From Orobanche coerulescens (lineage: Eukaryota > Streptophyta > Magnoliopsida > Lamiales > Orobanchaceae), in the NCBI GenBank assembly GCA_033398695.1, contig CM065804.1:122445501-122509500 (forward strand): a stretch of DNA of 64,000 bases, read 5' to 3'. This document shows positions 1,746 through 63,344 of this stretch, piece by piece. Position 1 is the first letter of the stretch; each line of letters begins with the position of its first letter. The notes below the pieces were generated by a model that made no database searches, had not been told where the DNA came from, and saw only the letters and a list, made by a program, of their open reading frames with translations. A program made the translations under genes and the position numbers.

Positions 1746-4700
1746 ATAGGGGTCCACATCACTGTAATATACCCTGAATATCTTGGGGGTATTACAATTA
1801 CATTGAGATGTGGTGCTTCTGGACCATGAGTCTCTTCAGCATTATTTGGTATAAAGGTGTCCCTAATAGGATCAAGTGACTGATCAATCATTTTGATGAG
1901 CGTGTTTCATCTGTATAAATTGCTTTATACCTTCTAGGTATAAGTGTGTTGATATACAAATAATACACTTTCCGAGTGTTTGTAATCCAAGACATATTGT
2001 AGATATTTCAAACTTTTTGATCTCAAATTATCTTCTCAAATATTCAAGTGTTAATTAGATCTGTTCTGAAGTTCCAGGCAATCTAAGATCATTCATATCT
2101 ATATATGACGTTGAGTCATTAATATACCTTTCTTTAGTCGAATAATATTGATTAAGATGATAATTTCAAATTCGACTGTACTATATGAATCCATATAAAT
2201 ATGAATCTATGTAAAGACTCTTACCATTTGAAGGAGTACATATATTTACATTTTTATTATATGCTTCAGGCATATCAAATCCTTCTAGGATTTCATGTAT
2301 CCATAAGACAAGTTTTTTCATGTACTTCCAATCACACTTAATATCTATATATGATTCAATTCATGAGTGGTCTTACAAAAAGACATAATCATTGTAAGAA
2401 ATTTTAACTCCAAGTCATGCTTCACATCTTATGTTTGTACGAGTAATGCTTAAAACTGTTGGTAACTCTTCAAGAGTTCCAATCATCATAATCACATAAA
2501 GTATGAATATTAATCAATATTCAACGAATTTTATTCAGTATGCTATTTTGGACTGCAGGCCAAATAACAAGTATTAACATTAATCAAATTATATTAAATT
2601 ATTTTGTCCATTTTGACAAAATAATTTATTTTCGAGATTAATCAAAATTCCGACATTAATCAATCTAGATCATTATGATCTTTATTTTTATCAAGTGTTA
2701 TTGTTAAATCTATTAACATAGGCTCCAAATTTCAATGCAACAAATTCTTAAAACGTTCTATAATTTAATTCTCTTCAAAAGTATGCTCCTCAAAAGCGAC
2801 GTCTTCGGGACGTTGAATTTTGTCAATAATGTTTCTTTTTTATCTCTAGAGATATATAATATATTTTTCACTATTTAGGTGGACTAGCCTTAAACTCAAT
2901 TATAGCACTTGCATGTGTCTTCCAGGACATCAGTTTGCAGCTGAATTTATTTAAACTCTTTTTGTGTGTATACATATAATTGATTTTAATTTCTACAAAA
3001 TTAATAATCTTTTGAACTTCAAGTTCATGATAAATAATATTTTTGATCGGTTGATACATTCCTCCCCTATTATTGAGACTGATACTATCAAACAATATCA
3101 ATCTTATTCATATCACTCATCAATACTTCAGGTATTGTCACAAATGATATACCCGACATATCTTAATATTCAATAAGATCCATAAGGGGGTATGTACACT
3201 GAAGTACTTGTCGGAATTCAAAATAAAGTACATTTGTGGATATCAAATCATAAATTACTCAAATATATAAACATTAAGTTTATTGTGATGATGATTATAA
3301 TTCAAAAGAATAAAGACAATTATGTCAACATCGAACCATTCTTGAATGAGTTTGTGACATAATCAACCTTTATTTTGTTGAATTTATAATACCATAATCT
3401 ACTTCAAGCGATATCAATAATATTCTATCTTCAAACATTAAAGATAGTAGTAGTTCCTCCTTCTGGGAGAAATATTATATTTTTCAAGAGCGTTTATTTT
3501 TCTCGACTGCATATTTATGCTTTATCAATGACACAAGTATCATCATCAATATTATATATAATAATCATCATTATTACTCTTTTTCGAGAAGAAAGTGCAA
3601 TGACTGTTATGAAATTAATCCAACATCTATATGATGCTTAGAAAAATTGGTCAACTCAAAATAATATAATTTTAAGTGTATAAATATACTTCACGATATT
3701 CGCTATTGATTTATGATACTTATCAAACTGTGTGTATAAATTTGTACTAATATATCTTCAAGATATATATACTATATCATAAATAAGTATATAGTTAAAT
3801 AAAATACAAACATGATGTAAACAAACTCTATCATTGAACATGTGATTTTAAACATGCAAATATTAAAAGTGTTAGAGATTTTTAGACTTCTGATCTAGTA
3901 AGTGGTGAATTTTACATATCATTTACTTTGACAGTTTCTCTAATATCCATTTCTTTTTAGAAACTGTATTTGTCATTTCTCCCATTTGTTTTCTCGGTCA
4001 TACATATTTCATTCGATATTTTTGAATATAATAAGTTATTTAGAGAGACCTAAAAGATAATATTACATAATCCGGCCCTTTTAGGGAGAATATAGTTGTT
4101 CTTCAGGAATCCTTACTAGTTTTGCACTATCACTTATAGTATTTTTTGGGACTTGGAAAAATATCATTTATATCTAAAGATGTTGTACATGTTTGTACAT
4201 TGATGAGATAATAAATTATGATCACTATTTAATTTCGAGAACTTGGCATTCGATTCACATAAATAAGAAATAAAATAAGTCAAGAATTTTAATGATGCAA
4301 ATATCTTCAGGATATTGGACCACTTTTATCACCAATTATATAGCAAAGATCAATTAAACTCATACTTTGGGTATGAAATCAATGATCTCATCTCATATTG
4401 ATAAACACTCATAATATATCATAAGATATACTAAAATATTAAACTACACAATAGATAAAATTAGATATTTGACATATAATCTTAGAATTATCATTTTCGT
4501 GTCCTTATCATTAGCAATTGATAATATCCGATTTAAGGGATATAACTATAAGTAATTATCCCCTACAAGGATAAAGACTAAATTTTATTTACTTCTCGGG
4601 ATAATTTCTACTGATATTATCTACTCCAGGAGATTATTTCTACGTATTATTAGTATTTGAGCCATGTATATTGAAGTTTATAATATAATATTGTTCACTT

Positions 4701-5410
4701 TTGAGAACAATTATCAGTAAATATGATAGAAATATTCAACCACTCATTAATCTTGCTACCACTGGAGCATAATCGGATTATGATTGTGGAGTATATCATA
4801 TTTTATACAATCTCGATTGAGAATATTCTTCATATTTTTTATTTGAGATATAAGTTATTTGTCCTCGAGGGATAATTTTATGCCATATGTCACTTATATT
4901 AAAATGTGTGCTACGTCAAGAGCATAATATTTTATTTATGCTATTATATTTATAAGTAACAAACAAGATTGTTCAGGAATATTGTATTATCATGTAAATT
5001 ATGAATACATAAGAATTATTCATTTAGAATAAGTAATATTCTTCAAGAATATTACAATTAAATGTGCTACTTTAGGAACAGTAATTTTAAGAAATATACC
5101 TAAATATACGAGAGATGATAAAATAACAAAATTCAAAATAACTAAATTAAAATATTGTGCCTTGAAGAGCCATTACATTATTCTACAGGAATATTGTTTT
5201 GTATTTTCAAAATGAAATTTACATAAATCTTTAAATCTCATAGTGTTCTTCATGAACACATCGTAATCAACTAGAATATGATAAAGTTATGTTTCTTCAA
5301 GAAATACAACATATTTTTTATCTTAATAATCTACTGGATTATTAAGTATTGTTGAATCATGTTTCTTCCTGAAACAAAGAGTAATATGATTTGATAATAG
5401 ATTTCTAGAT
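1746..5410. other. AT-rich intergenic block with many short hairpins, no gene seen
   Basis: About 3.7 kb of very AT-rich DNA without a convincing coding region. I recognise no transposon domain. A minus-strand peptide at 1891-1760 (GPEAPHLNVIVIPP) faintly recalls a copia integrase/RT hinge, but nothing around it supports this. The clear structure is a scattered series of short inverted repeats with loops such as TTC, TTCAG or TTCCT, for example at 1925-1943, 2277-2293, 2464-2478, 3013-3027, 3750-3767, 5243-5259 and 5361-5375. It ends sharply where GC-rich sequence begins near 5434. Confidence 0.6.
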
Positions 5411-5433
5411 CATCATATATATTGTTTATATAT

Positions 5434-5746
5434 GATGCCCGGGGAGTCCGACGTTTTTTGTCAGACTTGTCGCCTGGCGTGCCCTCAAAACGGCGTGTAC
5501 GCGGGTTTCGAGGGCTGCATTTAATGTGTCTCCCCGACGGTTGCACTTCAGCCCCCGGGATTCCGCCTATTTGCACAGAGGTCCCTGCTCTTGCCTATAA
5601 AAGGGCTAGGGCTGCTGGAGTTTAGATCTTTATGCGCTCTTGCCTTTATATGAAGACTCTGCCGAAATTCCTTGAAGCTTCTTGCGTCGATCGAAATTTT
5701 CTCTAGGTAAGAACAAAAATTTTTTTCCCCCATTTTCTCTTCGAAC
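5434..5746 (+). promoter_or_regulatory. Putative promoter and 5' leader of the antisense extra gene
   Basis: Base composition switches abruptly from AT-rich to GC-rich at about 5434. A TATA box (TATAAAAG) lies at 5596-5603, 144 bp upstream of the ATG at 5747. The leader contains a possible donor (AGGTAAGAAC near 5704) but no clear matching acceptor. The promoter faces away from gag-pol, on the opposite strand to the host retrotransposon. Confidence 0.6.
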
Positions 5747-6681
5747 ATGTCTGGAGGAGGATCCAATGTGTATGAGGCTGGTAGCTATTCTGCCACCGCG
5801 ACTTCACCTGCCCGGGAAGAAACCTCCGCGGCTCTTCACATGGAGACGGCCGTCGTGGCCATTCGTGCAGGGATTGCACCCGCCGAGGTTGAAGAGCTTT
5901 TCAATGAGGCTGATGTGGCGAGGTCGGCGGCGGCGGGGCAGAAGGCCTCGCCGGTAGACGAGGATGAGGCGGTGAGGATATATTGGGAACAGAACAGTGT
6001 GTTCGGCCCTGCCTTTATGGAATTCGCCGGACTTATGGATAGGTTGGCCGGACCATGGCCTCAGTTTAACTTCGGTGCATACTCAGTCGCCCACCCCTAT
6101 GAAACCGTGAAGCGGACATCATTCCAGGCCGCGGACCGCTCCCCGTGGACCCTCGGTCAGTTCCGGAGTTCGGCGACCAAGAAAGACTTGAGTCACTTGA
6201 GGGCGAGGTTCCATATCCCTTCTGATGTCTCATTGTATGTGCCCTCGGAGAACGAACATGCCGACCAACCTCCCGAGGGTATGGTCGCCGTTAACGAACT
6301 GATCCTGGAGGCCGGTTTGCGGTTCCCATTGCCGTTCGCCGTGTCATACCTGTTGACCGCATGGAATGTGGCGCCGCTCCAATTGACGCCGAACGCCTGG
6401 TTGCAGATCATCAGTACCTTGACTCTACTTGGCGGTCACCGGCTGTTCCGTCTACCTTCTGCTGGAAATGAACTACCTCTTCAAGCTGACGGGGCAGAAG
6501 GACTCAGTTGGCGGCTACCACATTCAGGGTCGCATGGGCAGAGTGGTCCTCGGGGTGCCGAACAAGACTCGAGGCGACCTGACGAAATGGTGTTGAGTCG
6601 GCGGAGCGTGGAGATCGGTGGCGAGTGATAAACCAGAGGATGAGTTGGATATCCCCACCAGCTTTCGGGAGAGGAATCCGA

Positions 6682-6750
6682 GTAAGGATTTCAACTCTCC
6701 CTTTGTTCGGATACGTCTTGGACTGATCTAATTTGGTTTCCTTTTTGCAG
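6682..6750 (+). other. Intron 1 of the antisense extra gene
   Basis: Donor GTAAGG at 6682 and acceptor TTTTTGCAG ending at 6750. Joining codon AGT(phase 1) to the next exon gives NPS-SLVPVSGDFLFDF in one frame, which continues to LPDNYIDVRTV. The frame agreement on both sides supports the call. Confidence 0.65.
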
Positions 6751-6908
6751 GCTCCCTTGTTCCAGTGTCCGGTGACTTTCTCTTTGACTTTCTGATCGTC
6801 TGGGAGTGAATCCGCAGTCTACCGGACAACTACATCGACGTTCGCACGGTCAACAACGAAGCTCATTGGTTGGGCGCTCGATTGTTTCGCTTCCCTCGCC
6901 ACTTGAAG

Positions 6909-7003
6909 GTTCCAGGTATAAATGTGTACTATCACTTTTCTTGTTTGATGATTGTCTGATTGAAAGAGATGTCTAACTTGGCTGAATTTCTTCTTTGACA
7001 CAG
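6909..7003 (+). other. Intron 2 of the antisense extra gene
   Basis: Acceptor TTTGACACAG ends at 7003, with a CTAAC branch-like site about 30 bp upstream. The donor that keeps frame is AAG|GTTCCA at 6909, giving RHLK-IHIPRYSEPP. The stronger-looking GTATAA donor at 6916 would break the frame, so the exact donor is uncertain. Confidence 0.5.
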
Positions 7004-7410
7004 ATTCACATTCCCCGCTACTCCGAGCCGCCGAGAGAGATTGCAATGTCGAACCCCGGACTCATGAGTCGTCTCCAGCAAGGGAAGAAGGCGGGCCGTG
7101 CCCCTGCAACAACGTCCTGCCCTGTCCCTGAGGCGAGACCTCTCATAGCGCCGGTCGTCGAGCCGAAAGCTTGGGAGGAGGAGCAGCTTCAGCGCAACCG
7201 CAAGACGCGGAGGCCGGAGGAGCCCCTGCCGACTGTTGCAGCGGAGGCATCCATTGTGGTGCCGCCGGTTTCCGCGCCTCCTATTTCCGCCATTCCAATG
7301 GCGGAGAGATCTACGCCCTCAGCGGCCTTCCTAAAGACTGCGGCGATCGCTGAAGCCGAGGCTCCGCGGGGTAAGCCCTATTTCAGCCGCGACCCCGAGC
7401 TGGTCGCAAG

Positions 7411-7487
7411 GTAAGACTGGTTTGATCTTTCTAAGTTAAGCTCCTTCTGTAGGGTGCATACTAACTCCTTCGTTTTTCATGTTGCAG
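7411..7487 (+). other. Intron 3 of the antisense extra gene
   Basis: A 77-nt intron with donor AAG|GTAAGA, a perfect TACTAAC branch motif at 7459-7465, a T-rich tract and acceptor TTGCAG at 7487. Splicing joins ELVA-R-VRLADPNTSPMVLDFLASKS in frame. This is the best-supported of the three introns. Confidence 0.75.
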
Positions 7488-8500
7488 GGTCCGCCTTGCC
7501 GATCCGAACACCTCACCGATGGTGCTGGATTTTCTGGCGAGCAAGTCCCCGCGCGAGCCTATCGACGTCGCTTCCTACGTCTCCCGGGCCATCTCCTCTC
7601 TTCCGAAGGCTTAGACGACCGACCTGGACGCAATTGCGCGCCGGCGGTCTGGAGATGCCATGCAGGCGACACTAGCCCTGACTCTCCAAGCGACGACGAT
7701 GGCCGCTCAAGCTGTTAAAGATTATGAGAGGCGGCCCTCTACTCCTCGCCTCCATTCGGATCTTGAGGTTGCTCGGAAACAGAACGCCGAGTTTTCCAAT
7801 ATGATCATGGCCATGGAGAAGGAGTATACTGAGACGGCCAAGCGAGCTAAACAAGATCTTGACCGGATGAGGCAGGAGCTCGACCGGTCCCAGGCGGTGG
7901 TCGATAGGATGTGCGACCAGGTGACGGAGGCTCGTCGGTTGCATGCGGCCTCGCAGGAGGAGGTCACCGGGCTGAATGAGGTGGTGGATCAGCTAAGCGG
8001 CGAGCTGGAATCGTCGAAGGGGGAACTGGCTGCTAAGGTAGCCGAGATCAAGGATGCGGACAAGACGGCCGCGGGGTTGAAGGAGAAGTTGGAGGCGATT
8101 GAGACCGATCACTACCTCAGCGTGGAGTACGTCGGCAAGTTTGCATATTACATGGCTTACGTCGGTGCCATCCGTGCTACCAAGAAGGGAGGGGTCGAGG
8201 TTGGACCTCTGATCGAAAACTTCAAAGCCTACGTGCTCGAGCATCCTTTGTAGCCAAACTTCTCTCTGCCGATCCTTGACATCACCGACCTTGGGATTGA
8301 TCTGAGCTGGTACCCTTCGCCGAACAAACTTGTTTATCCGGAGTCCGGTGAGGAAGCGCGCATCGATCCGTCTGCCGGAGGCGAAGGCCAGGCGGGGGTG
8401 GCCTGAGCGAGACCGCTGTTTATGATTTTTTTCTTTCCTTATAATTTCCATTTTCTTCTTGTCTTGCCTTCGGGCGTGTATGTACAAACAATTTGAATGG

Positions 8501-8506
8501 AATAAA
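8501..8506 (+). terminator. Poly(A) signal of the antisense extra gene
   Basis: AATAAA about 95 bp after the likely stop codon at 8404, preceded by TGTA-containing sequence (GTGTATGTACAAAC at 8476-8489). This order matches a plant 3' end for a plus-strand transcript. Confidence 0.55.
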
Positions 8507-8509
8507 ATA

Positions 8510-9662
8510 CGTTTTATTGCATCTGACTCTTTATTTGTACGATCGCCTCTCTGAATGTTTGCATACGAATTTACACAAGTGTTTATACAATTGCACCTGA
8601 TGCCTTGCTTGTATGATCTCCTTGTCTGAATGTTTCAGATCATTTCGACTTTGCACAATTGTCTGAATAGATCTGAATGCATTAGTACACTTGAAATTCT
8701 TACTTGTAAATTTCTTGAACAAAACCGATCGTCACATGTGTGTTTGAACAAAGCCGATCGTTTGTGGTTCCGTCCTCCTGATCGCATATACTAATAGCTC
8801 CACTTTTCCCCTTGTTTTCGTTTACATAGTGAAAGTAAGGCAACGAAAATAATACGTTTGGTGAGCTATCTTTAGTTTGTTTCTTGCGATCTTCAATTTT
8901 GTTGGTTCATCGAGGGAGGTTGATTGTTTCGACCTTGATGAACCGCGCACGGTCGCTGAGTTCGACAGACCGACCTCCATGACCGTGTCTTGTGCGCGAG
9001 GGACATTCCACCTATTGTCCTGTCTCGCGACTCATTTTATTGTGAGGTTCCTCCGTTAGGCTGCGCCCGCCTTGGATTTAAACGAAAGGCGAGCGATCTT
9101 GGTCTGGAGGAGTCCTTGCACGCGTCGTCGTCGGATTAATCGACTCCACGTTCGCATCTTGTTAGCACTTTTCTACCTCGGATCGTCATGTTAGATGGCG
9201 AGCCTCGACGGTATACGTTGTGACGGGGGTAGGGACATGTCGCTTTATCCGGGTCCATCATGTTAGATGATGAACCTTTGAGGGCGGGCGAGTGTGTCCA
9301 CAGATTTGTTTGGAGGGTCCTTCGGCTACGCCCGCCTCGTATTTAAACGAAGGGCGAGAGATCGCAGCCCAAATGAACCTTTCATGGACTGACTATCGGT
9401 TCCATCGACTTCCAGGACCATGGCATCACTTTTCTACCTCGGATCGCCATGTTAAATGACGATCCTCGATGGTATACGTTGTGCTTTGGGGGGGGGGGGG
9501 GGGCGAACGCTTGCATAGGTCTGTTAGGTTTGATGACGACCTCTTGTAGGGCGAGCGAGTCGTCCTCTTTTTATTTGTTTGTTTTGTTGAGGCGAATCAT
9601 ATATAGGGGATCGGAGGATCTCATTAAACTCTTTGTACATTGGGTAATTGAATATAGAGTTT
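8510..9662. repeat. Tat 3' untranslated region with about 260-bp tandem repeats
   Basis: Between the end of pol (9663, minus) and the antisense gene lies non-coding sequence. Two tandem units can be read: 9053-9321 and 9322-9560. Each starts with CGCCCGCCT...TTTAAACGAA...GGCGAG and ends with GGATCGYCATGTTAAATG/TTAGATG and a GGTATACGTTGTG block. The second contains a run of 16 G at 9488-9503. The first 500 bp (8510-9050) have no recognisable feature. The reverse complement of these units is seen at 63345-64000 in Tat copy B. Tandem repeats in this position are a known property of Tat-lineage elements. Confidence 0.8.
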
Positions 9663-12600
9663 TTATTGGTAATATTTCTTCAAATGCACGGCGTTCCGGG
9701 GATATTTTTCCGGAGTGCCATCTGGGTGTTGGAGTTCGTAGGCTCCTCTGGTCAGCCATTTAGATATTCTGAAGGCCCCCTCCCAATTTGGGCCAAATAC
9801 TCCCGTGTGAGTCTGGACCTTTTTGAGGACCAGGTCGCCCACTTGGACCTGCCTTTCCTTGACCTTCGAATTGAAGAATTTATAGGATTTCCTTTTGTGG
9901 ATCGTGTTCTTCATTTCCGAGGTCAGTCGCCGTTCTTCGAGCATATCCAAGTCGATCCGTCTGGCTATATCATTGTCCGTCGTCATTTCTTGTTCAGTTT
10001 GGTGGCTGAGGAGGGCGATCTCCGAAGGGATCACCGCTTCTATTCTGAAGGCGAGGGCGAATGAGGTTTCGTCGGTTGAGTTTTGGGTCGTCGTTCGGTA
10101 GGACCACAAAACATCCAGGAGCTCGCTCGCCCATCGTCCTTGTTTGGATTCGATTCTTGCTTTGATCGTGTGTTTGAGGATCTTGTTTACGGCCTCCACC
10201 TGCCCGTTCGTCTGAGGCTGGTAAGGGGCCGAGAACAACTTTTTGATTCCCCATTTCTCGCAGAATTGGATGACTTCCAAACCGTCGAACTACTTCTAGT
10301 TGTCGGAGATGATAGCCTGGGGTAGACCGAACCGGCATATGATGTTCTTCCAAATGAACTTGATTACTTGCTCTTGGCCGATCTTGTTAAGTGGCTCGGC
10401 CTCATCCCATTTCATGAAATAATCGACCCCCGCGATGGCAAATTTACATCCCCCTGGCGCCGTCGGCAAAGGACCGATGAGGTCGATGCCCCATTGGGCG
10501 AACGGCCATGGACTGTACATAGAAGTGAGCTGCTCGGGGGATAGACTGATGTTCGGGCCCATCACTTGACACCTGTGACATGATCGGGCATAGGCGATCG
10601 CGTCTTTTTGTAGTGTAGGCCAGGAAAAACCTTGTCTGGTTGTCTTGTGGATGAGTTCTTGTCCTCCAGCGTGATTTCCACAGATCCTGTCATGGATCTC
10701 GGGTAGAACGAGTCGGCCTTCCTCCGGCGTAATGCACTTGAGGAGAGGAAGGCCGAAAGCTCGTTTGTAAAGCTGGTCATCCAATAGGGTATATCTGGTT
10801 GCACAGAGCTGAAGATGGCGAGCATTGATACGATCGGCGGGGACCGTTCCGTCCTTCAAGTATTTGATGAACAGAGTCATCCAGTTCTCTTCGGCGATGG
10901 CAACTGTGGTGATCAGGCTCCTGTCGATCGCCGGCTTTGCTGACTTCGTGATTTGGATGTTAGAGAAGTCTGCCGCCCCATCTGACGATGTTAGTTTGGA
11001 TAGGGCATCGGCCTGGGAGTTGTGCTCTCTCGGGACTTGTTCGATCAGCACTTCTTCAAACTTAGTGCACATTTCGGCGACCAGTTCTTGGTATTTGATC
11101 ATCTATTTGCCGCGCGCCTCATATTCCCCCTTCACTTAGTTTACGACCAAGAGGGAGTCCATGAAGATGTGGAGGCGACGAACGTCCAAGGCGAGTGCTA
11201 GATCGAGCCCGCCCACCAAGGCTTCGTACTCGGCTTCATTGTTGGTCACACGGAACCCGAAACACACAGCATTTGTGAAACTTTGGCCGTCGGGGCTGAT
11301 GAGGACAATCCCTGCCCCTGCTCGCGAGTTGGTCGCCGAGCCATCCACGTACAATTTCCAGGCAGGGCGGCCGACCTGGGTCGGACTGGGTGGGAACGTG
11401 AATTCCACCACGAAGTCCGCCAGAGCTTGGCCTTTGATCTCCGTGCGAGGAGCGTACGTGATACCTTATTGGGCGATCTCCAGCGACCACTTGAGGAGTC
11501 GCCCGTTTGGTGTGTGGCCGGTGCAGAACTTGCCTTAAGGGGAGAGTCGTCAGAACCTCCACTTGGTGTTCGAAGAAGTACGCCCTCAGCTTACGAACAC
11601 TCATGACTAATGCGTAGGCGATCTTCTCCAAAGGTGTGTAACGCGTTTTCGCGTCATGGAGCGCTTGACTTACGAAATAGATCGGCAAGTGGGGTTGCCC
11701 CTCTGCTCGCACTAAAATGGCACTCAGTGCGACCTCCATGACCGCCAGGTAAAGGAATAGCTTTTCGCCGGGGATCAGCTTCGCCAAGATCTGGGGGTTA
11801 GATAGATACTCCTTGATTTTGGCGAACGCTATTTGACTCTCTTTTGTCCATGCAAACTTCTTGTTCTTTATGGTCTCGAAGAATGGCTTGCTTTTATCTC
11901 CGAGCTGAGAAATGAAACGGTTAAGGGCAGCTAGACAACCTGTGAGGCGTTGCACCTGTTTGACGTTCCGTGGCTCCTGCATGTCGAGGATCGCCTGGAT
12001 CTTGGTGGGGTTTGACTCGATCCCCCTCTGGCTCACGATGTGCCCCAGGAACTTTTCGGAGCTTACCCCGAAGTTGCATTTCTTGGGGTTCAACTTCATG
12101 TTGAACTTCTCGAGGATGGCGAACGTCTCGGCAAGGTCATTGAGGTGATCTTCCTTTTTGAGGCTCTTGACTACTATGTCGTCAATGTAAACCTCCATGG
12201 TCTTGCCGATCTGGTTGGCGAACATCCCGTTGACCAGCTGTTTGTAGGTTGCCCCCGCATTCTTCAGACCGAATGGCATTCGGACCCAAAAGTACACGTC
12301 TTTTTCCGTGTGGAACGACGTGTGTTTTATGTCTTTCTCCGCCATTGGGATCTGATGGTACCCGGCGAAGGCGTCCATGAACGACATCATTTCGCAACCT
12401 GCCGTGCTATCGACTAAGTGGTCAATATGAGGCATCGGAAAGTGGTCTTTTGGACATGCCGCATTGAGGTCGGTGAAGTCGATGCATAACCTCCAGGAGT
12501 TGCTCGGCTTTTTGACGAGCACCGCGTTAGCTACCCACTGTGGTTCGTCTGTAGCTACTCCGGTCCGTTTGTTGTCAAGTAGCTTTTTGACTTCTATGTC

Positions 12601-12711
12601 GAGCGCTGCGTACTTCTCAGGACTGAATTTCCTACGTTTCTGGTGAACAGGTTTCCTTGCCGGGTTGATCTTTAGATAGTGGCATGCGTGTTCAGGACTT
12701 ATGCCGACCAT
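9663..12711 (-). pseudogene. Tat-type Ty3/gypsy pol: RT, two RNase H domains, integrase
   Basis: Minus-strand order: RT (12711-11900) with the active-site motif VYIDDIVVKS; a first gypsy-type RNase H (about 11800-11600, SAILVRAEG...PIYFVSQAL); a second RNase H (11411-11136, WKLYVDGSAT...NNEAEYEALVGGLDLA...MDSLLVV); integrase with an H/C finger (HAGGQELIH...CHRCQ, near 10680-10570), the core start GIDLIGPLP, PQTNGQVEAVNK (about 10220) and the C-terminal DLVLKKV region ending in LKKYYQ. Two RNase H domains are a hallmark of the Tat lineage. Defects: a frameshift near 11540 and stops near 11490, 11105-11140 and 10290. RT itself looks intact, but the polyprotein is broken. Confidence 0.92.
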
Positions 12712-15456
12712 ATCTTGATGCGACTAGGAAAAGACTCTGATGTTCTTACGAAGTAAACTGATCAGGTCATCCTTTAACTCGAGGCCGATGCTTGTGCCGA
12801 TCTGTACTTCCCGCTCCGAATGAGCCGGATCTATCGTTATACTTTCCAACTCTTCAATGGGGACGGTCGCTTCTCATTTGGAACGATTTCCGGACTCGAT
12901 CTTTGGATCGATGTCAAGGCTAGGCTCGAAACCGATCCTTGGCTCGATGTCGTCCGTCAATTGATGTGAGATGCCGTCCTCTGAGTCGGGCTGGTACGAG
13001 GTGCTTGGCTCGTCGATCTCCATCGGTTGATTGTCGATCGTCTCAATGTTATAAATAGTATGGGAAGTGTTGAAAGAAGTCACGACACAGGAGTAATTCA
13101 AACATTTCTTAGCCATTAGTTGGTCTCCTTTTACAGTACCGATCGTCCCGTCGGCAGTAGGGAATTTGATAAAGTAAAAGAAAGAAGAGGCGACCGCCTC
13201 GAAGGTTTCTAGAAATGGGCGACCTAGGAACCCATTATAGATGCTATGGCTATCTATGATTACAAAATTGAGGTTCCTAGTAATCCTAACCTTGGGATCG
13301 TAATAACATATTAGCTCGACAGAGAGCTTGATCCTTCCATAGGCTTGGACTGTGCTGTCGCCAAACCCTTGAAGCACGGTATCAAATGGCTTGATAAACT
13401 TGGTCAGGTTGCCGAGCTGGTCAAGAGCGGATTTGAATATGATATTGCAAAAGCTCCCATTGTCAACCAGCACGCGATCGACCATTTTCCCAAGGATACA
13501 TGCAGAGATTACTAATGCATCCTCTTTGGGGCACTGCACTCTCTCCCTATCCTTGCTAGAGAAAGTGATGAGTGCGTCTTTGGAGATGGTCAGCTCTGGG
13601 GTTACCACGACATGGACCCCGGTGAACGCCCTCAATTCGGCCTTCCGCTTTTTATTCGACATGGTGGAAATCGGGGAAAGGCCTCTGAGGTTCCCACCTC
13701 CCGACTGAAGCATAATTATCCGGCCGTCGGGGTTGATCGGAGGGATTGATTCATCTGAGTACTCCGGCTCATTCTGATCGATCCTAGTGACCGGATTGGG
13801 AGGGATTCCATCGCTCTGTTGGCAGTCGCGCCCCCCGGTTCTTTCTGCTCGGGGTTCTGGCTTGGTAACCAAGTTATCCAACTTGCCTTCCTCAAACAGT
13901 CTCCAGAGTTGTCTGAGGAGGTCGCGGAACTGGTTGGTGTTGTGGCCGGGACTCTTGTGGTAGGCACAAAATTTGCTGCGGTCTAGATGATTGTTGTCCC
14001 TCATCGGCTTTGGTTTGCTGAGCCACTCGCGCCCCTTGATGGCGTTGAAAATGTGGGCCGGAGATAGATTGAGGTTGCGGAGGAGGTGAACTTCCACATC
14101 CTCGAAGGCTTTGAATTCACCGGGCGGCTTCGCGACCGCCTTTCTGGGCTTGGCGACCGCCTTTCTCCGGATGGAAGATGGTGCCTTCCCTTCCCCGGTA
14201 GATCCCTCACCTAAGCGAAGAGTGAGCATCCTCTGCCTAGCCAGAAAATTAGCGGCCCTGACGCGAAAGATCGCGTAGGTCGGGGGGATGTCCTTCGTGA
14301 GGTGCCTGAACATGGGCGAATGGCCATGGAATCCCCCTAGGTCCGAATAAAGAGCGAGCTTGTCGCTAATGGGCTCGCCGGTGAGGACTATTTCGTCCAC
14401 CCGGTCGATGTATTCTTTGTCGGGCTCGTCCTTCCCCTACCTGATCTTCATCATACGGTGGGGGCCTTCTGGCCGAGCGACTTTGGCGGCGAAATACGAT
14501 GTGAAGTCGTTCGCCAGCTTCTCAAAACAGTTGATTGAGCGCGGTGGCAATGAGATGTACCACCTATGGGCAAGATCGCCCAATGTCAATGGGAACATTC
14601 GGCACTTCATCATGTCCGATGCTCCGCATCCGGTCATGTAGATCCGGAACTTGCTCAAATGGGTCTAAGGCTCCGATCTCCCCTCATATAGAGGTGTTTG
14701 AGGAGGAGCGATCTTCGGTTGCACGGTGGCGAGCTAGATCTGGACCGCGAGTCGCTCATTTGGTCTGGCGATCGATCTCTTGGCGCCTGCCCCAGTTTCA
14801 ATGAGTGCCTTAATTTCGTCAAGCTGGCACTGCATTGCGGCCATCGCCGTGGCCTGACTGCTCGCGGATTGGCTCTCGAAGCGGGAGCTGAGGCGATCGT
14901 GTACCGATCTCCTGGCCCCGTGGTAGGTGACGAGTTCTCTGCCACCGAGCTCTATTCTTGGGTGAGTGGGAGCCCGTCGACCGGCCTGTCTTCTGGGAGT
15001 TAGGTATACCAAACTCCTGGTGATGGATTCGGACTCCGACGTCTCACGGATGAAGCCCGAATGCCCAGGTCACCATGAGGGATCACTCCCTAGGCAGCTC
15101 AAGACGGAATCGTCCCGCCTTACGAGCGCCTTTTCCTGCGACTCGGGGCTTTCTGACGATTTCTCGACATATTGCCCCTTGAGCTTCCGCTTGCCCGCAC
15201 GACGGATGGCTGATGGAGTGATGGTGGGCGAGTCGCATGCTCTCCGTCGCTCCCTGAGGATGGCCATGGCCTCCTCGATCTGTTCCTCAGTTTGAAACTG
15301 ATCGAGTGAGAGACTGGGGTCGTCCCTCGGGGGCGGGAGTGAGAGTCTAGCGTCGCCGCGGTCGCCTTCCGCCGTAGGTTGGGACTCGGTCTGGGCCGGA
15401 ATAAGGTGTCTGGGAGATCGTAGGGTGGCCCTTTTCGAGGTCGTGGCAGATGTCAT
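12712..15456 (-). pseudogene. Tat gag and protease
   Basis: The minus strand starts MTSATTSKRATLRS at 15456. Gag runs through a coiled region (ATAMAAMQCQLDEIKAL, near 14870) to the conserved capsid-like core HLSKFRIYMTGCGASD...LAHRWYISLPPRSI (14658-14500) and CAYHKSPGHNTNQFRDLL near 13950. The protease follows around 13480 with VDRVLVDNGSFCNIIF and ends with YNGFLGRPFLETFEAVAS near 13210. A linker to RT follows. In-frame stops occur at 15070-15072 (TGA where copies A and B have CGA), near 14730 and 14675, and at 14437-14439 (TAG where both copies have CAG). Confidence 0.9.
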
Positions 15457-15584
15457 GATTCTGAAGGTTTTTCTTTGAAGAACAGTGAGTGTTTCTTCAA
15501 GTATATGCCCCAGAGAACAGTGAGTGTTCTTCGAGACGGTCGGAATAAAAACGAAGGTTAAGATGCCCTCCTTCTAGCGCCAAT
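15457..15584 (-). other. Tat leader with primer-binding region
   Basis: Directly after the LTR end the minus strand reads ATTGGCGCTAGAAGGAGG, also found after LTR A (52244) and LTR B (61456). This is the primer-binding position. The sequence is conserved among the three copies, but I cannot name the tRNA with confidence. The leader also holds repeats of the word GAACACTCACTGTTCT. Confidence 0.6.
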
Positions 15585-16527
15585 TGTTGTTACCCAAAAT
15601 ATTATCCGGAGATGATATTGCTGGAATGGTCGAGTAACAAACAAAGTGCGAGAGCACGCCCGTGGGGAAATAAATAACACAAGATTTTCCGGGGTTGTTA
15701 GTCCCAGGCTTGAATGCTTTCGCGAGATGTTATTAATATGAATACTAGTGAGTACAGTTATTAAAGTTAGAGTACAATTACAATGAGTGTAAAGACTCTA
15801 GTTATCTTAGCTATCGAGTGCTGAAGATTGCCGGAAGAACCAGAGTTGAAGCTCTGTGAGTTCTTATTACAAAGATGGAGAGTTTTCCATATTATTTGCT
15901 TTTAGTGTTATGTGTTCACGTTGTAAACTGTCACTGTGTTAACGTTTTTTCACTCTCCGAGTTTTTGTGAATGTCTTTCACTGTGTTTTGGCCGCTGCTG
16001 GAGGCCTTCTATTTATAGGAGAAGAGGTCGCTAGGTTCTCCCTGTCCATCGCGGGCGACCGCCATTTCCTATATTAGAATAAGGTGGGCGATCGTGCCAG
16101 CATGTGGGACTATTTCCTTAAAGTCTGCGGCTGCTGCTGGTAGCCAGATGTGCGAGCCAATGAGAAGTCTGCACGCATCCTGAGTCACTGTCTCGGGAGG
16201 TCCCACTTCGCACCTTTCGACGGGTCTGTCGGTAGGTGAGAAGATGGTGGCAGGCTGGGGTCAAAGGGCCTTATCCTGTGGCGCCTTTTGCGGATCTGCA
16301 CGTGGGTCTTCATCCGAGATTCCGTCTTCGAAGACTTTGACGGGTGTCGGATTCATACGTGGCATGGTGCGATCATCTCCAGTCGTCCATTAGAGGCGAT
16401 CTCCAGATGCCAATAGGCGATCGCCTTGGACGTCGACCGCTAAGCGCTTGCCCATCATCTGTCTTCTTTAGCTGGCTCCAGACCATTTTGCCGATCACCA
16501 TCGAGGCGTATAAATCGCTGCACAACA
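15585..16527 (-). mobile_element. 5' LTR of the minus-strand Tat element
   Basis: A 943-bp LTR, start TGTTGTG (16527) and end CAACA (15585) on the minus strand. The lengths and ends match LTR A (51302-52243) and LTR B (60347-61455). A TATA box (CTATAAATAGAAGG on the minus strand) lies near 16005-16020. GCGATCG-type words are repeated upstream of it. No matching 3' LTR is seen left of the antisense gene, so the element is truncated there or the LTR lies outside what I can recognise. Confidence 0.85.
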
Positions 16528-18444: not shown

Positions 18445-20353
18445 TATTGGAATTCCGGATACAAGATCAAGTATGGAGCAGAATAATAAAACTCAATATA
18501 AAGAATCCCAAAATAGGATCGATCAAGTAACGTATATACGAAAAGTAAATTGACGAAGACAAAGGATTAAAGTCCCACACTTTTGAAGCATTTGATAATA
18601 TCTTCGTAATTTTGATGATGATCACGGAACCGAACATGAGCACGAATAATCCTTCGTTGCAAACACCGAAAGCACGATGTCTCTACTTCACACACGTCGG
18701 AACTTGATCGAAAAAAATCAAGGAGACTCCGTTCTATCAAGAATATGGCTAGGGAAACTCGTAGGAATTTTTCTCTCTTGTTTTTCTTTCTTTTCTTCCA
18801 CCTCAAAGATGAAGAATTTGTTGAAAAAAAATCTCTCCCTCTCTCTCTTTGGTGGTTCGTCTGAAATTTCTCTAAGTGTTCTTGTGGTGTTCTTGTTTTG
18901 ATAAGATATAAGAGATCATGTTGCTTAATTAAGATATTAAATATATTTCATAAAACCACCAAATCAAATCAATATGGAAGTATTCTCAAGTAACATGCCA
19001 TATCCCATAAAAAACAAACACACACCATGACAAAAAGAGGGGGAGGGGCGGCCACATGGAAGGTGCTAGGAAACGGGCAGAGTCACTCGGCTCGTGTACC
19101 GGACGTTCGTCAAACGACTCCATTTAATACACTACATTTTATCACCAATGTATTTATACTAATTAATTAATCCAATTAATTAATTATATCAATTACAAAT
19201 ATATTTCTCTAAGAAATATAATTTATGAATTAAATTAATTACCCAGTAACTTAATTTCAATTCATAAGACCGCTATTTGATTTATCCAATAACTCATAAT
19301 TAGATAGCCAATATCTAATATTATTAGAGAGAAAATAAATTCACATTTATCCGTCAATGATCCTGATGCGCAACTATATAGGTCCATCTCAGCCGGCATT
19401 AGGAGGAACCAATGAGTGCGGACAATGCTTAGACAGCCTAGCGGGCCGCACTGTAAACCCCGACTGAGAACGAATGAAGGATCATTCCAGAACCATTATG
19501 TCGTGAATACCATATACGTATAGACCCTTCACCAGATGTCCCGGTCAAGTCTTCGGGTCACGGTAAAGTCAAACCCTACTTTTGACTAGACACTACACAT
19601 GTGTTAATGTAAATCAAGACCGACAGATTACTAATGTATCCAATACGACTAAATCAGAATGTAAATCAAGACCGACAGATTACTAATGTATCCAATACGA
19701 CTAAATCAGAATGCTTTGTCCAAAGACTTATGATCTTATTTGCCATTAACCGTATTGGACATTCGCCCACTCACTAACAGGAGATGGAATCCTTTCTTGG
19801 CGTACAGCAAAGATTGCTACCTCTCCGTATAGTCCGCACTTCGAGGTTGACCCAGCGATTAAGCAAATGAGTCTAACTACTCTAATGACAAACTAAACTT
19901 CACAAGCATACGCATACTATCACAACCTTTCGATTCGTCATCGACTCTCCAAGAGTGAATACCATATGACTGAATCAAGTATGAGTCGGGTTTGAGTCCA
20001 CTGGTCCCACCAATATACTTATAATTATGCTATCAATACATGCACCTGTCCTAGCATCAATTATACAAGTCTTACTCAAAACTTAATGCCCAATTAAGTT
20101 ATCGACTTCCAAACGGTTTACGTAAATAAGTTTTAAACACTTCTAGTGCATTTATCTAATCCGATAACGAGAGTGGAATATTTGCTCTTATTTACATGGA
20201 CTTCACTTTAATGTTTACCAAATCAAGAATGCATTTGAAATACAATAAACGATAAATGAATCATATTGCCTTTTATTAATTATTCCATAATTACAAGTAC
20301 AATGCCCCTTCTCTCTCATCCCCTGAGTGGAATTCGATGGCATATTCCTTATA
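18445..20353 (-). mobile_element. 3' LTR of the minus-strand copia
   Basis: A 1.9-kb LTR matching 34055-35959 along its length, for example the block at 18480-18620 against 34095-34230 and the GGCCGCACTGTAAACCCCGA block. On the minus strand it starts TATAAGGAATATGCC (the partner has TGTTAGGAATATGCC) and ends CCAATA (partner CCAACA), so both ends have mutated. A PPT-like GTGGAAGAT precedes it at 20354-20362. It contains a private 52-bp tandem duplication at 19606-19709. Divergence from its partner suggests an old insertion. Confidence 0.88.
19606..19709. repeat. 52-bp tandem duplication inside the copia 3' LTR
   Basis: Two perfect 52-bp copies start at 19606 and 19658 (AATGTAAATCAAGACCGACA...). 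The 5' LTR at 34055-35959 has one copy only, so the duplication arose after insertion. Confidence 0.85.
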
Positions 20354-30598: not shown

Positions 30599-33500
30599 TG
30601 TAACACCCCCAATCCGCTCAGGGATATTACATGCCGTAGAACCTTCCCTCAAGGTTCTACCAGGCTGGTAACAAAACCGAACGACTCAATAACGCCTTTA
30701 AGACTAAAATGACTCAGTAGACCGATTTGGTCTTTCAATAAATACATACAACTCAAATACAACTCATGCCCACGCAGGGGTCAAAATACAACCACACCCG
30801 TACAACGGGAAAAATATAGCAGCGGAAAATAAAGTAAAACTGAACCAATAAACAATGTACAGTTCCTCATGTGATTAGTATCGATCAACTTTCATCATCC
30901 TTCGTGCCGACCCTGTGTTATGCTCCAAAACCTGAATGCAAAAATAGACATCCACCCCCCAAATACTCGGGGGTTATCAAAACTCCATTGTTTTGCTAGT
31001 GCAAGAACAAAGTGCAAATACGAGCCATACAATTCACATTCCACGAATAACAATAACCAGGAATCCTCAAAAATCTAAACATAACAAAAAGTACTTCCCG
31101 AGGCAAGGATTTGGTAAAATATTCTAAAACCGAAAGGTCGCAATTCAAGGGAAACCAATTTATAAAACGGTTTATAATGCCATCGAGAGTTTTAATAGAA
31201 AGCGATTTGGATTAAGAATCCTTATCTTTCCAAAATCAATAGGGTCATTGACAAAGGTTTTGTTTTCACAAATAAAACCAACCATAATACACAAGGTTAA
31301 AACCCACGTCATGCATCCTCGACGGACATAAAATACACACGCACCCGTGAAGTTTCACTCGTGAATCCAGGTCGAAGCCATTGGAATTCCCTCCGTGGCC
31401 CCGTCGAACCCTCCCGAGGTGAGCAAACACATTCACAAAACATAAGCAACCGCACTCGTGAATCCAGGGCTATACCATTGGGCTCCCTCCGTGATCCCAT
31501 CGGACCCTCCCGAGGTGAGCGAAAAACAATCACAAAATATATACACGTAGCAGTGAAGTTTCACTCGTGAACCCAGGTCGAAGCCATTGGAATTCCCTCC
31601 GTGGTCCCGTCGAACCCTCCCGAGGTGAGCAAACACATTCACAAAACACGTACTCGCATCGCCTAGGACTGGGACGAAGCAGCAAATCCCACTCGAGGCC
31701 CCGTCGGACCCTCCCGATCTGGCTAGAAAAATACTCAAGCACCACACGTCACCTAGGACCGGGACGAAGCCACGAATCCCACTCGAGGCCCCGTCGGACC
31801 CTCCCGAGCTGGCTGCGAAATAATCAAGCACAAGTAACATATCGCACCAAGGATATCCAAACAATTCACCCAGAGGCATCAAACACTTAGCAAAACAACA
31901 CGTCAAACCACAATGCACCGAAATGAAACAATATACGTCTACACGCAAATACCAAGCGCATCATCAACACCAAACATATCCATAAGATTCACATACTCGT
32001 TCACGAATCACACCAATCACAAAACACACACGGTTTTGAAAGAGGGCCTTCAACAAGACTAACCAAATCTTTTGAAAACTCATTTCAAACAAACAAACAA
32101 ACACACCAAGACGATCACCAATCATCATATCCACAAAACAAGAATAGTATGGACAAGGTACTTGCCTCGAATAAGAACAACGCGGAGAATCGACCGAAGT
32201 AGGTTGACACGAACCGACTACGAACCCGCCGACTCCACCGATCGACAACTCGCGGTCATAAACTACGAAGGACAATAACAACAATGAAATGAAATCCATA
32301 ACACGACTCAAAGCCGTTGAATTCAAAGAACGAATGACGAAAGTTCAAGTGTTTTCCCCAAAACGGCCAAGAACACGATTCGTCCCGACAAAACACAAAA
32401 ACGGAATTCCAAGTCGAAATATGGATATACAATCCATAGAATATGTTTAACAACATTATTTAACCACAATCTATCCAACAAAAATGGATGGAAAACGAGA
32501 TCGAGAAGAAATCTCCCAAAAAGTCGATTCGAAGGAAATCAAGAAATATACTTCGATTCGACGAAGAACAATGGATTAAATGATGTTAAACAAAAGAATA
32601 CTACCAAGATTAATCATACCCATCATGAATTAATCTACAACACGGAACGAATCGGATAAAAATGCAAAAACCCCCAAATTCACGAAATTAGGGTTCTAAG
32701 GTGAGATTAACTTGATTCGCTGGATCAAAGGATGATAACGGATGATTGATCAATGATATAACCTCAAGAACTTCATGGATTTGTTGTTAAACAACATGGC
32801 TTCGCCACCTCCGAATCGCCAGCCGCGGACGGAAAAGGAAGGAAATGAAAAACGAGAGGAAATGTGACTGCTCTGTCACATTTATACTGGGCTGGACTAG
32901 CGTGTGCTAGGCTGCCGAGCTAGCGTCTTCTCGGCCTGTGCCGCGATCCGAGCCCCACGCCCTACTGACTCGGCCAGGTAGCATGCGCAGCCGTCCGGCC
33001 GTAGCGCGCACTACCTGCCGGTCGTAGCTTGCACAATGAGCAGCGATGGCGTGCACTACACCGCCGATCGTCCCGAGTCGATACTCGGTAACCCCTACGC
33101 CCGGCCCGATGGCGTCGCGAGGCGGCCCGATAGCGTGCGCTACACTGCCGGTTAAGCGCGCGCGACCTTTCGACCATGGCGTGCGCTCTGGCCGGTTCTG
33201 CCGTGCTTGCCGGCGGTGCCCGACACTTCCGGCCGTGCCGGCACTGTCGGCCATTCCTCAGCGTCATGACCCGGCGACTCGATTTAAGCGTGCGGAGCGA
33301 ACACGACGAAAAGCTCGCGGACAACATCATCGACCCGAAATGAAAACATAATGCAATAATTAATCATACGCAACCAAGAAAAGGGTCGAGACAACAATTA
33401 CAGATACGGATACCCGTAACTTTGGGTAAATTACAAAAATGGCCCAAAACGCCCGAAAATCACGATACGTGATCGAATAACCAAACCGAAGTTCACAACA

Positions 33501-33755
33501 CGTCTAACAAAGTTAAACGGACTTACGGGAAACTCGAAACAGCAGTTTCGAACGATATTCGCAAGAATCAAACTCAAGTGCGGAAAAGTCACTAAAAAGC
33601 ACGGAACTCAACAAAACGACACCGAAACGAACTCAGATGTCAAAAAGTGTAGAATTAATCATTCTCAGAATGATGAAACGGTCATGTGCGAGTCATCAAA
33701 ACGGACTTCTGCCGAAAAATAAAAAATTAACAGAAATCGAAATTACGGGTATTAC
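30599..33755 (-). mobile_element. Solo Tekay-like LTR, 3.16 kb
   Basis: On the minus strand it starts TGTAATACCCGTAATTTCG (33755) and ends GGGGGTGTTACA (30599). Flanks CGGAA (30594-30598) and CGGCA (33756-33760) form a 5-bp duplication with one mismatch. No internal region is present, so this is a solo LTR left by LTR-LTR recombination. It carries a tandem array at 31340-31830 and a GC-rich array of GTAGCGYGCACTAC-type words at 32980-33200. The several open frames inside are in LTR DNA and look like chance. Confidence 0.85.
31345..31830. repeat. Tandem array in solo LTR
   Basis: About five degenerate units of roughly 85-110 bp, with starts near 31361, 31458, 31567, 31650 and 31748. Each contains CCGTCGRACCCTCCCGAG preceded by CTCCGTGG or CTCGAGG. 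Two other family LTRs have an analogous array with a different unit at the same relative place. Confidence 0.75.
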
Positions 33756-34054
33756 ACGGCAACCCCCGGGCACTGTTTCGGGTGTCGTCCAACGGTAATA
33801 TGGTCCTCGATTTCTGACCGGATATCCAATATCCATATTTTTCAACATTCATATCTTCAATATAAATTATATTTCCATGAGATTAAAGATTTATATTTAG
33901 ACATATATTTACGAAAAATATAACAACAACGAACGAATAAACATATACCATGATTATGACAAAAATGATTCCAAATCATTCACCATATTATCAAGCATTC
34001 CAAATGCTAGAAAAATTCGTATATACGGTATCAATGACCTCGCTCCGATACCAC
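33756..34054 (-). other. Copia leader (second part) with primer-binding site
   Basis: The leader continues from the solo LTR to the 5' LTR. On the minus strand GTGGTATCGGAGCGAG (34054-34039) directly follows the LTR end CCCAACA. This matches the primer-binding site for initiator methionine tRNA used by copia elements. Confidence 0.8.
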
Positions 34055-35959
34055 TGTTGGGATTCCGGATACAAAATCGAGTACGCAGCAAAATAATAAA
34101 ACTCAATATAAAGAATCCCAAAACAGGATCGATCAAGTAACGTATATACGAAAAATAAATTGACAAAGACAAATGATTAGAGTCCCATACCTTTGAAGCC
34201 TTTGATAATATCTTCGTAATTTTGATGATGATCACGAACCCGAACACGAGTACGAAAAACCCTTCGTCACAAACACCGAAAGCACGATGTCTCTATTTCA
34301 CACGCGTCGGAACTTGATCAGAAAAATCAACGAGACTCCATTCTATCAAGGACACAGATAGGAAAACTCGTAGGAATGTTTCTCTCTTGATGTTCTTTCT
34401 TTTCTTCCACCTCTATGATGAAGAATTTGTTGAAGAAAAATCTCTCCCTCTCTCTCTTTGGTGGTTCGGCCGAAAATGCTCTAAGTGTTCTAGTGATGGT
34501 CTTGTTTTGATAAGATATATAAAAGATCATGTTAATTAAGATATTAAATCGATTTGATAAGATCACCAAATCAAATCAATATAGAATTATTCTCGAGTAA
34601 CATGCCATATCCCTTAAAAAACAAAGACACGCCATGACAAAAAGAGGGGGAGGGGTGGCCACATGGAAGGTGCTAGTAAACGGGCCGAGTCACTCGGCTC
34701 ATGTACTGGACATTCGTCAAACGACTCCATTAAATACACTCCGTTTTATCATCAATGTATTTATACTAATTTATTAATCCAGTTAATTAATTATATCAAA
34801 TAAAAATATATTTCTCTAAGAAATATAATTTATTAATTAAATTAATTACCTAGTAACTTAATTTCAATGCATAAGACCGCTATTTGATTTATCCAATAAA
34901 TCATAATTAGATATCCAATATCTAATATTATTAGAGAGATAATATATTCACATTTATCCATCAATGATCCTGATGCGTGACTCCGTAGGTCCATCTCAGT
35001 CAGCATTGGGAGGAACCAATGAGTGTGGACAGCGCTTAACCAGCCTAGCGGGCCGCACTGTAAACCCCGACTGAGAACGAATGAAGGGATCATTCCCGAA
35101 CCATTATGTCGTGAATACCATATATGTATAGACCCTTCATCATATGTCCCGGTCAAGTCTTCGGGTCACGGTAAAGTCAAACCCTACTGTCGACTAGACA
35201 CTATACATGTGTTAATGCAAATCAAGACTGACTGATTACTAGTACATCCAATACGGCTAGATCAGAATGCTTTGGCCAAAGACTTATGATCTTATTTGCC
35301 ATTAGCCGTATAGGACATTCGCCTGATCACTAGCAGGAGATAGAATCCTTTCTTGGCGTACAGTAAAGACCGCTACCTGCCGTATAATCCCCATCCCGAG
35401 GGGCGTTCCATGATTGACTGAAAACGGGAGATTAAGCAAATGAGTCTAACTACTCTAATGACAAACTAAACGTCACAGCCACGTCTATTACTGAACCCTA
35501 AAGTTAAAGGTCCACGTATACTATCACAACCTTTAGATTCATCATCGACTCTCCGAGAGTGAATACTGTGTGATTGAATGAAGTATGAGTCGTGTTCGAG
35601 TACAATGGTCCCACCAATATACTTATAACGATGCTATCAAGACATGCACATATCCTAGCATCAATTATACGAGTCTTACTCAAAACTTAATGTTCAATTA
35701 AGTTTATCGACTTGCGAATGGTTTACGTAAATAAGCTTTAAACACTTTCAATGCATTTTCTCTTATCTAATAATGAGAGTGGAATGCTTGCTCTTATTTA
35801 CAAGGACTTCACTTCAATGTTTACAAAATCAAGACTGGATTTTAAATACAATAAACAATGAATGAATCATATTGCCTTTTATTAATTATTCCATAATTAC
35901 AAGCACAATGCCCCTTCTCTCTCATCCCCTGAGTTGCATTCGAGGGCATATTCCTAACA
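34055..35959 (-). mobile_element. 5' LTR of the minus-strand copia
   Basis: A 1905-bp LTR, minus-strand start TGTTAGGAATATGCC (35959) and end CCCAACA (34055). Its partner is 18445-20353. The next 5 bp (TTTAG, 35960-35964) match TTTAA at the far end of the element, so the whole 17.5-kb copia inserted as one unit. Confidence 0.9.
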
Positions 35960-43550: not shown

Positions 43551-44693
43551 ACGACAACACCCGCACACTAGCATTCACAATTCATAGTTAGCAAAATCAC
43601 AACTCTCAAGGGTCAAACACACAAAATATATAATCGAGGTACCTTGCTAGAATGGACAAATTATCCAACATATGCTCACGACCCAGAACTAATACTATCA
43701 ACAAGGAAGCACACTATTTCAACAGCACCGAACGGCACAACCAGTATCACATAAATTCACATATTCATTGATAACCACATGTCTCCACGTACAGCTTAAA
43801 CAAAGGATTAAACTTCAAAACTTACCGAAGACATAATCACTCATAATGGCATCATACGAAAGTAATGCGATCATATACTCAACATTAATACACATATTCA
43901 ATTAAACATATTAATTCTCGGAACACACGAGTCGTCTTCAAGAAAACCATTATGGTAAATATACCGATTCTTTTAAAAAAATGGTTATAAATATTTATTT
44001 AGCACATATCAACGATTAGCAACTATTATATCCACAAAAAACGTAATGTATGGGCAAGATACTTGCCAAGACAATTGATATAGGACACACTGAAGAACAT
44101 GGATCAACCGGGAAACCTCGAACACCTACAATTCTCCGGCGAAGACAATGAATACACCCTCGATCGGAAAGCTTGAAGAAAACGATGACCGGAAGAGTTC
44201 CGACTCGAGTTCTTCGCAAGGAACCTGACCCTAACATCATACCATCAATAAATTAATGGTTGAACGAGGAAGAATAATTGTAGAACGCCCGAATTCCCTT
44301 TGTGACATTTTATCAAATACCTTCAAGGCGTCAATAAGAAACTCAATAAAACGACGAATCCTCGGCAATCCAACCATGGAACAACAAGGAATTCAAAATA
44401 ATAAAGCTTAACAATCATCAACCCATCCCTATTCTGAGTTTATACGGATTAAATGGATAAATCGAACGAAATCCCCAAAATTAGATTTTAAGACAACTTA
44501 CCCTGATTAGATCGATCGGAGCATGTTATGGAAGAATTAATCGATGATATGGACTCAGGAATCTCATGGATTCATTGCCTAACAACATGCCTCCATGTTC
44601 GTGAAATCTCCAGCCGCGGAAGGGAAGGAAACGAGTGAGAAAATAGGTGAAAAACCCGTCTGCTGGGCCTTATATAGGCAGCCTCCCGGCCGC

Positions 44694-52243: not shown

Positions 52244-52371
52244 ATTGGCGCTAGAAAGAGGGCATCTTAACCTTCATTTTTATTCCGACCGTTTCGAAGA
52301 ACACTCACTATTCTCCGGAGCATATACCTGAAGAAACACTCACTTTTCTTCAGAGAAAAACCTTCAGAATC

Positions 52372-63340: not shown

Positions 63341-63344
63341 CCCT

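Follow-up and report, generated by a model that had tools for sequence, protein, structure and literature searches.

A putative intron-bearing gene lies antisense to pol in a decayed Retand-like retrotransposon remnant of Orobanche coerulescens

The DNA analysed here, referred to as the window, is a stretch of 64,000 nucleotides from Orobanche coerulescens (GenBank assembly GCA_033398695.1, contig CM065804.1, positions 122,445,501 to 122,509,500). Its minus strand carries a Gypsy-type pol (9663–12711) that is broken into several ORFs for reverse transcriptase, RNase H and integrase, as identified by Pfam matches to RVT_1 (2e-30), RT_RNaseH_2 (1.9e-17) and Integrase_H2C2 (2.1e-9); a match to rve_3 (0.0023) was below its cut-off. 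An ORF on the gag/protease side (12874–14400, minus strand) lacks its own Pfam match at E 0.01. Beyond pol, the roughly 4.2 kb between its end (9663) and 5434 contain a candidate gene on the opposite strand, with a below-cut-off match to PF04195 inside. The location of a gene opposite gag-pol, as claimed by the original prediction, is thus borne out by the minus-strand reverse transcriptase, RNase H and integrase sequences. Two degenerate copies of a repeat of about 269 bp occupy 9036–9581, between the end of pol and the antisense gene; self-blastn aligns 9036–9312 with 9305–9581 at 68% identity, and Tandem Repeats Finder did not detect the 9036–9581 repeat.

The Retand/Tat lineage is defined by the position of its RT in a tree, and its members further have a Gypsy-type pol and two LTRs. 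RVT_1, RT_RNaseH_2 and Integrase_H2C2 are all matched above their cut-offs on the minus strand, whereas self-comparison of the window revealed no LTR pair bracketing the element. Because no LTR pair was detected, the element is labeled Retand-like and is not filed as a member of Retand/Tat. Placement in Tat, which had been claimed at the outset, fits the gene content, with the exact lineage remaining putative. GC content left of about 5430 drops from above 0.5 to 0.25–0.28, and the sequence changes again right of about 16.5 kb, where a copia-like RNase H region was recognized by eye. The element is a remnant, apparently cut off on both sides. The very AT-rich segment on the left (2000–5430, about 3.4 kb, GC 0.25–0.28) ends sharply at the upstream region of the antisense gene.

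Other parts of the window contain related sequences. A related copy of the element on the plus strand (60340–64000) runs off the end of the window and includes a Retrotrans_gag match at 61745–63079 (E 0.00021, below its cut-off). Within it, position 63320 (matching 9572) directly adjoins position 63297 (matching 13647), and the gag side thus seems to join the 3' region without pol, in the manner of a non-autonomous derivative. The segment just downstream of the antisense gene (8886–9572) recurs in this copy at 63987–63320 beside gag-like sequence, as would be expected if the stretch belongs to the element. A further partial copy of the gag side on the plus strand (51302–54155) is 75% identical to 14347–16461 and ends at 53480, where another repeat starts that recurs at 44690–45371 and 33411–33756. 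A 1.9-kb direct repeat (18447–20349 and 34057–35955, 85% identical) is also present. A tblastn search of the window with six exon pieces did not turn up the antisense gene a second time.

The plus strand of 5434–8506 was examined in three frames and its ORFs were listed. A TATA box (TATAAAA, 5596–5602), one of three plus-strand TATAWAW sites in 5431–16500, lies upstream of the ATG at 5747, which begins an ORF of 5747–6628; an AATAAA polyadenylation signal is located at 8501–8506. The latter is the sole copy in 8401–8600 and is weak evidence by itself, because AATAAA occurs 57 times in the window. All three signals had been named in the original prediction and are present as described. A GTAAGA near 5707, noticed by eye in the 5' untranslated region, is a possible donor of another intron; such an intron was considered and dropped.

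Four exons separated by three candidate introns can be drawn between these signals on the plus strand. Exon 1 (5747–6681, from the first ATG) encodes an N-terminal region and a Transposase_28-like region, and is matched in tblastn by P0001, P0002, P0003 and P0005–P0008, and also by P0004 and P0012 (P numbers denote the homologous proteins described below). Intron 1 (6682–6750; 69 nt, phase 1) reads GTAAGG...TTTTTGCAG and is followed by exon 2 (6751–6915), which is matched by P0002, P0003, P0005, P0006, P0007 and P0009. Intron 2 (6916–7003; 88 nt, GTATAA...GACACAG) is of phase 1 as judged from the homologs. Exon 3 (7004–7410) encodes a linker with a basic patch and is matched by P0002, P0006, P0009 and P0010, with P0005 and P0003 additionally matching its 3' end. 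Intron 3 (7411–7487; 77 nt, phase 2) reads AAG/GTAAGA...GTTGCAG/G and contains TACTAAC. Exon 4 (7488–8406, with its stop codon at 8404–8406) encodes a coiled coil and a conserved C-terminal motif, and is matched by P0001, P0002, P0005, P0006 and P0009–P0011. GC content is 0.58, 0.53, 0.64 and 0.59 in exons 1–4 as compared with 0.41, 0.33 and 0.40 in introns 1–3. In every exon frame, GC is lowest at the second codon position and highest at the third, a comparison made without a control.

The tblastn alignments of the homologs are interrupted at shared places across the region. P0002, for example, aligns with 6465–6923, with a 23-column gap at intron 1, then with 7004–7411 and then with 7486–7824. 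Each candidate intron has the features of a spliceosomal intron: GT-AG ends, a branch-like motif, reduced GC and a position at a break in homology. The branch-like motifs CTAAT, CTAAC and CTAAC (the last within TACTAAC) are located 19, 27 and 23 nt upstream of the acceptors of introns 1–3, respectively, and both the donor and acceptor signals of intron 3 are very strong. Six homology break points, which were gaps and ends of homology picked after the candidate introns were known, were each searched within 12 nt for the best splice sites; with a generic plant consensus matrix, the summed score was 56.4. For points drawn at random, sets from the whole window had a mean of 3.3 (sd 9.0) and sets from the element a mean of 4.1 (sd 8.7), and none of 20,000 random sets reached 56.4 in either case. 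The splice sites and the TACTAAC motif claimed originally are thereby upheld, and the three candidates look like genuine introns of the spliceosomal type, as predicted from their sequence.

Homologous proteins were collected by searching a database of 5.8 billion proteins. The exon 1 ORF yielded four plant proteins, and queries with P0002 (Orobanche hederae) and with A1, an alignment of ten proteins, yielded ten more, with about 8,000 best candidates scored for each. The resulting set comprises at least 14 distinct homologs, 12 from Orobanche (gracilis, hederae and minor), one from Sesamum and one from Acer. Among the candidates scored, the closest are 66–73% identical to the window over parts of exon 1. 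The Orobanche models are strongly diverged, being 38–55% identical to P0002. These homologs are gene predictions made by an unspecified method, which may itself have relied on splice signals and open frames; they are known here as proteins alone, and their position antisense within elements is presumed. Pattern searches of IMG/VR viral contigs returned 0, 6 and 37 stretches, none of which was a relative.

The exon joins can be compared with the continuity of these proteins. Eight of the 14 homologs span intron 1, and in five of them (P0002, P0003, P0005, P0009 and P0013) the phase-1 join yields the homolog spacing without a gap; of the others, P0006 is short by five residues, P0014 differs by a single residue at two places and P0007 is loosely aligned. 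At intron 2 the junction is free of insertion or loss in six of eight proteins (P0002, P0003, P0005, P0006, P0007 and P0013), P0006 being one residue shorter close to the junction, and the end of exon 2 is absent from P0009. In alignment A2 (seven proteins), six have no insert at this position and P0014 has one. The phase-2 join at intron 3 is gapless in four of the five proteins that span it (P0002, P0005, P0006 and P0010), with P0009 short by 14 residues; P0003 runs to the end of exon 3 and diverges beyond.

Two Orobanche models deviate in ways of their own. P0014 (Orobanche minor OROMI_009065) contains 26 extra aligned residues at the position of intron 2. Back-translation of the end of this insert permits a pyrimidine-rich stretch containing GCAG, which suggests a retained intron, but the start of the insert fits the donor position and phase poorly. 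An insert of exactly 88 nt, like intron 2 itself, was rejected: the alignment has 26 inserted residues, and the 88-nt reading would need three exon residues to be missing from P0014, whereupon the phases would not fit. P0001 (Orobanche gracilis OROGR_001651) extends a few residues past the donor of intron 1 and has no exon 2, which may reflect the use of other splice sites, an erroneous prediction or decay of the copy.

The copy in the window is dead. Comparison with the homologs locates a frame change within exon 1 at about 6425–6465, and stop codons interrupt the homologous frame at 6594 (exon 1), 6807 (exon 2), and 7612 and 8251 (exon 4). Introns 1 and 3 preserve the homologous frame, but joining across intron 2 as drawn enters exon 3 out of the homologous frame. 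Because of the four in-frame stops, the frame change in exon 1 and the loss of frame at intron 2, a full protein cannot be made from this copy. The original prediction had described a complete-looking unit with three frame-keeping introns. Its TATA box, ATG, introns and AATAAA are in place and two of the introns keep frame, but the reading frame of the unit is broken, intron 2 does not keep it and no LTRs were found.

Exon 1 matches Transposase_28 (PF04195) with E 0.0013 and 19.3 bits, below the gathering cut-off of 26.2. When ten homologs were scanned, six matched at E up to 0.01 (P0001, P0002, P0004, P0005, P0006 and P0012) and one, P0004, passed the cut-off with 26.9 bits; P0008, P0009, P0010 and P0013 were unmatched, of which P0009 and P0010 are without that region. 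None of 2000 shuffles equalled the heptad pattern of a 100-residue segment in exon 4, and a C-terminal motif in exon 4 is common to P0001, P0009, P0010 and P0011. The exon 4 piece also gave many Pfam matches (tropomyosin, intermediate filament and others), all below their cut-offs, which are read only as a sign of a coiled coil. The basic patch in exon 3, a 7-mer with a net charge of +5, is marginal, since 59 of 2000 shuffles are as high. The densest basic patches of P0002, P0003, P0007 and P0009 are also located in the linker, and those of six homologs are ordinary given their composition, with 169 to 1700 of 2000 shuffles reaching the same level. An AlphaFold2 model of P0002 from alignment A1 had a mean pLDDT of 38 and was unusable. 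The homologs and the splice signals together support the presence of a gene on the antisense strand that contains introns and encodes a Transposase_28-like region, in agreement with the original prediction. Capture of a host gene was considered and dropped; names give no argument against it, since all 14 homologs carry the label hypothetical or uncharacterized.

Antisense ORFs with similarity to Transposase_28 (TRP28) have been described in Retand elements. In the portions of the report by Vicient (2025; PMC11963269) available to us, such ORFs lie between pol and the 3' LTR in 97% of young Retand clusters, and 63 clusters studied in detail contain 104 antisense ORFs, 57 with TRP28 and 11 with matches to Smc. 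The gene described here resembles them in its orientation to gag-pol, its apparent location in the interval from pol to the 3' LTR and its putative TRP28-like region; some of the Retand antisense ORFs match Smc, which are coiled-coil proteins, and tandem repeats are often found near pol in those elements also. It differs in that separate ORFs are reported there, whereas here a single gene with three introns has both the TRP28-like part and the coiled coil among its exons. The ORFs in that study were called with ORF Finder, and the word "intron" occurs 0 times in the text available (PMC11963269). A much lower frequency, with Transposase_28 in 23% of Retand elements, is given in the consulted part of Neumann et al. 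(2019; PMC6317226), far under Vicient's figure for young clusters.

Maize Grande provides a second comparison. Its gene23 (Gómez-Orte et al., 2013, as cited in PMC7264820) is likewise antisense, is located in a long 3' internal region, and has its own promoter and a nuclear protein product; the excerpts of Vicient and Casacuberta (2020; PMC7264820) that describe it also call for the study of antisense and spliced transcripts. The portion of PMC3091746 at hand contains nothing on Grande splicing. Plant LTR-retrotransposons are generally intron-free, with Ogre and EVADE as exceptions, according to the available text of a 2025 review (PMC12786077), and the Ogre intron lies between two ORFs (PMC6317226, as far as its text was accessible). 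Ogre and EVADE thus share with the present element the occurrence of introns within a plant LTR-retrotransposon (PMC12786077, PMC6317226), but their introns serve their own gag-pol transcripts, only a subset of which is spliced in Ogre, whereas the introns here are on the opposite strand. Among the matches listed in literature searches, none described introns within antisense genes of Retand/Tat elements, and an earlier description may exist. Antisense Transposase_28 ORFs are an established Retand trait; the predicted spliced structure, in which a single gene has TRP28 and the coiled coil as exons, looks new.

HBZ of HTLV-1 is a bZIP protein of an animal retrovirus whose transcripts start at several positions in the 3' LTR, and in these respects it is unlike the gene described here, to which it is not known to be related. 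It is nonetheless comparable as an antisense gene, with a spliced and polyadenylated transcript, in a reverse-transcribing element (Cavanagh et al., 2006; PMC1459196, from the part available).

Taking the locus as a whole, we consider it likely that a decayed Retand-like (Tat-type) Ty3/gypsy remnant carried, in the region between pol and its 3' end, an antisense accessory gene whose introns were transcribed, spliced and kept through their antisense placement. It is unlikely that a separate intron-bearing gene or DNA transposon was instead inserted into the retrotransposon and took its antisense place by accident. A gene with introns and with promoter-like and poly(A) signals of its own could be such an insertion, the ends of the element are missing, and the AT-rich sequence left of about 5430 looks foreign. 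However, antisense TRP28 ORFs occupy the interval from pol to the 3' LTR in nearly all young Retand clusters, TRP28 similarity was not found outside transposable elements, both according to the available portion of PMC11963269, and the segment at 8886–9572 recurs beside the gag-like sequence at 63987–63320. The gene is probably not a chance passenger, given that antisense TRP28 ORFs occur in 97% of the young Retand clusters (PMC11963269, in the part available), although the earlier survey puts Transposase_28 in only 23% of Retand elements (PMC6317226).

The remaining alternatives concern what the antisense transcript does and whether it is spliced at all. We regard as improbable a function of the transcript as RNA, either as a source of dsRNA and siRNA or by interference with genomic RNA, with coding and splicing incidental; such a role is raised as a possible additional one in the accessible text of PMC7264820. 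Protein similarity extends across all four exons in diverged homologs, with joins that match at introns 1 and 3, and counts against it because a purely RNA role would not need four-exon protein similarity. Very improbable, too, is an intron-less, decayed ORF in which the supposed introns are insertions or GT-AG stretches that occur by chance, and are skipped in the homologous models only because predictors avoid stops. Gene models can be forced round stop codons, and P0006, P0007, P0009 and P0014 do deviate at the junctions; against this reading stand the splice score, the GC drop and branch-like motifs in three of three introns, the join positions shared by several diverged models, and the very strong signals at both ends of intron 3.

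The favored reading is that of an accessory gene on the antisense strand, equipped with a promoter and a poly(A) signal of its own and made up of four exons and three small spliceosomal introns; for it, the following course can be proposed. In intact copies, Pol II would transcribe the gene from the internal TATA promoter, and the three small introns would be spliced out. The protein, in which a TRP28-like region and a linker are followed by a coiled coil and a conserved tail, would most likely be nuclear, self-associating and a regulator of the element. Given how LTR elements generally replicate, the genomic RNA would start in the 5' LTR and hold the complement of the introns, whose ends are no splice sites, and reverse transcription would copy the introns whole. 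The spliced antisense mRNA, having neither LTR ends nor a primer site, would not serve as a template. The introns would thus survive transposition because splicing leaves their complement in the genomic RNA. This reason for intron persistence, anticipated in the original prediction, is logically sound and by analogy agrees with HTLV-1 HBZ; it is consistent with the shared intron places in the diverged Orobanche models, to the extent that these models lie, as presumed, in elements.

A broader proposal, which we put forward tentatively as plausible without favoring it, is that the Retand antisense gene is in general a multi-exon gene, that the TRP28 and Smc-like ORFs reported separately are its exons, and that its introns have been carried antisense through reverse transcription since early flowering plants. 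P0012, from Acer and thus outside Orobanche, has a TRP28 match and a C-terminal part that is coiled-coil-like by eye; it fits this proposal without proving it. If the proposal is true in general, the Retand-type lineage would be a long-term natural carrier of introns: retroelements are expected to shed introns when they are copied via RNA, and the antisense gene would escape this fate, explaining how normal splicing is kept by an accessory gene of a retrotransposon. Many Retand annotations would then need correction, with separate ORFs becoming exons, and the unexplained TRP28 protein could be tested from its true full-length sequence. The gene would also constitute a plant counterpart to the spliced antisense HBZ of HTLV-1.
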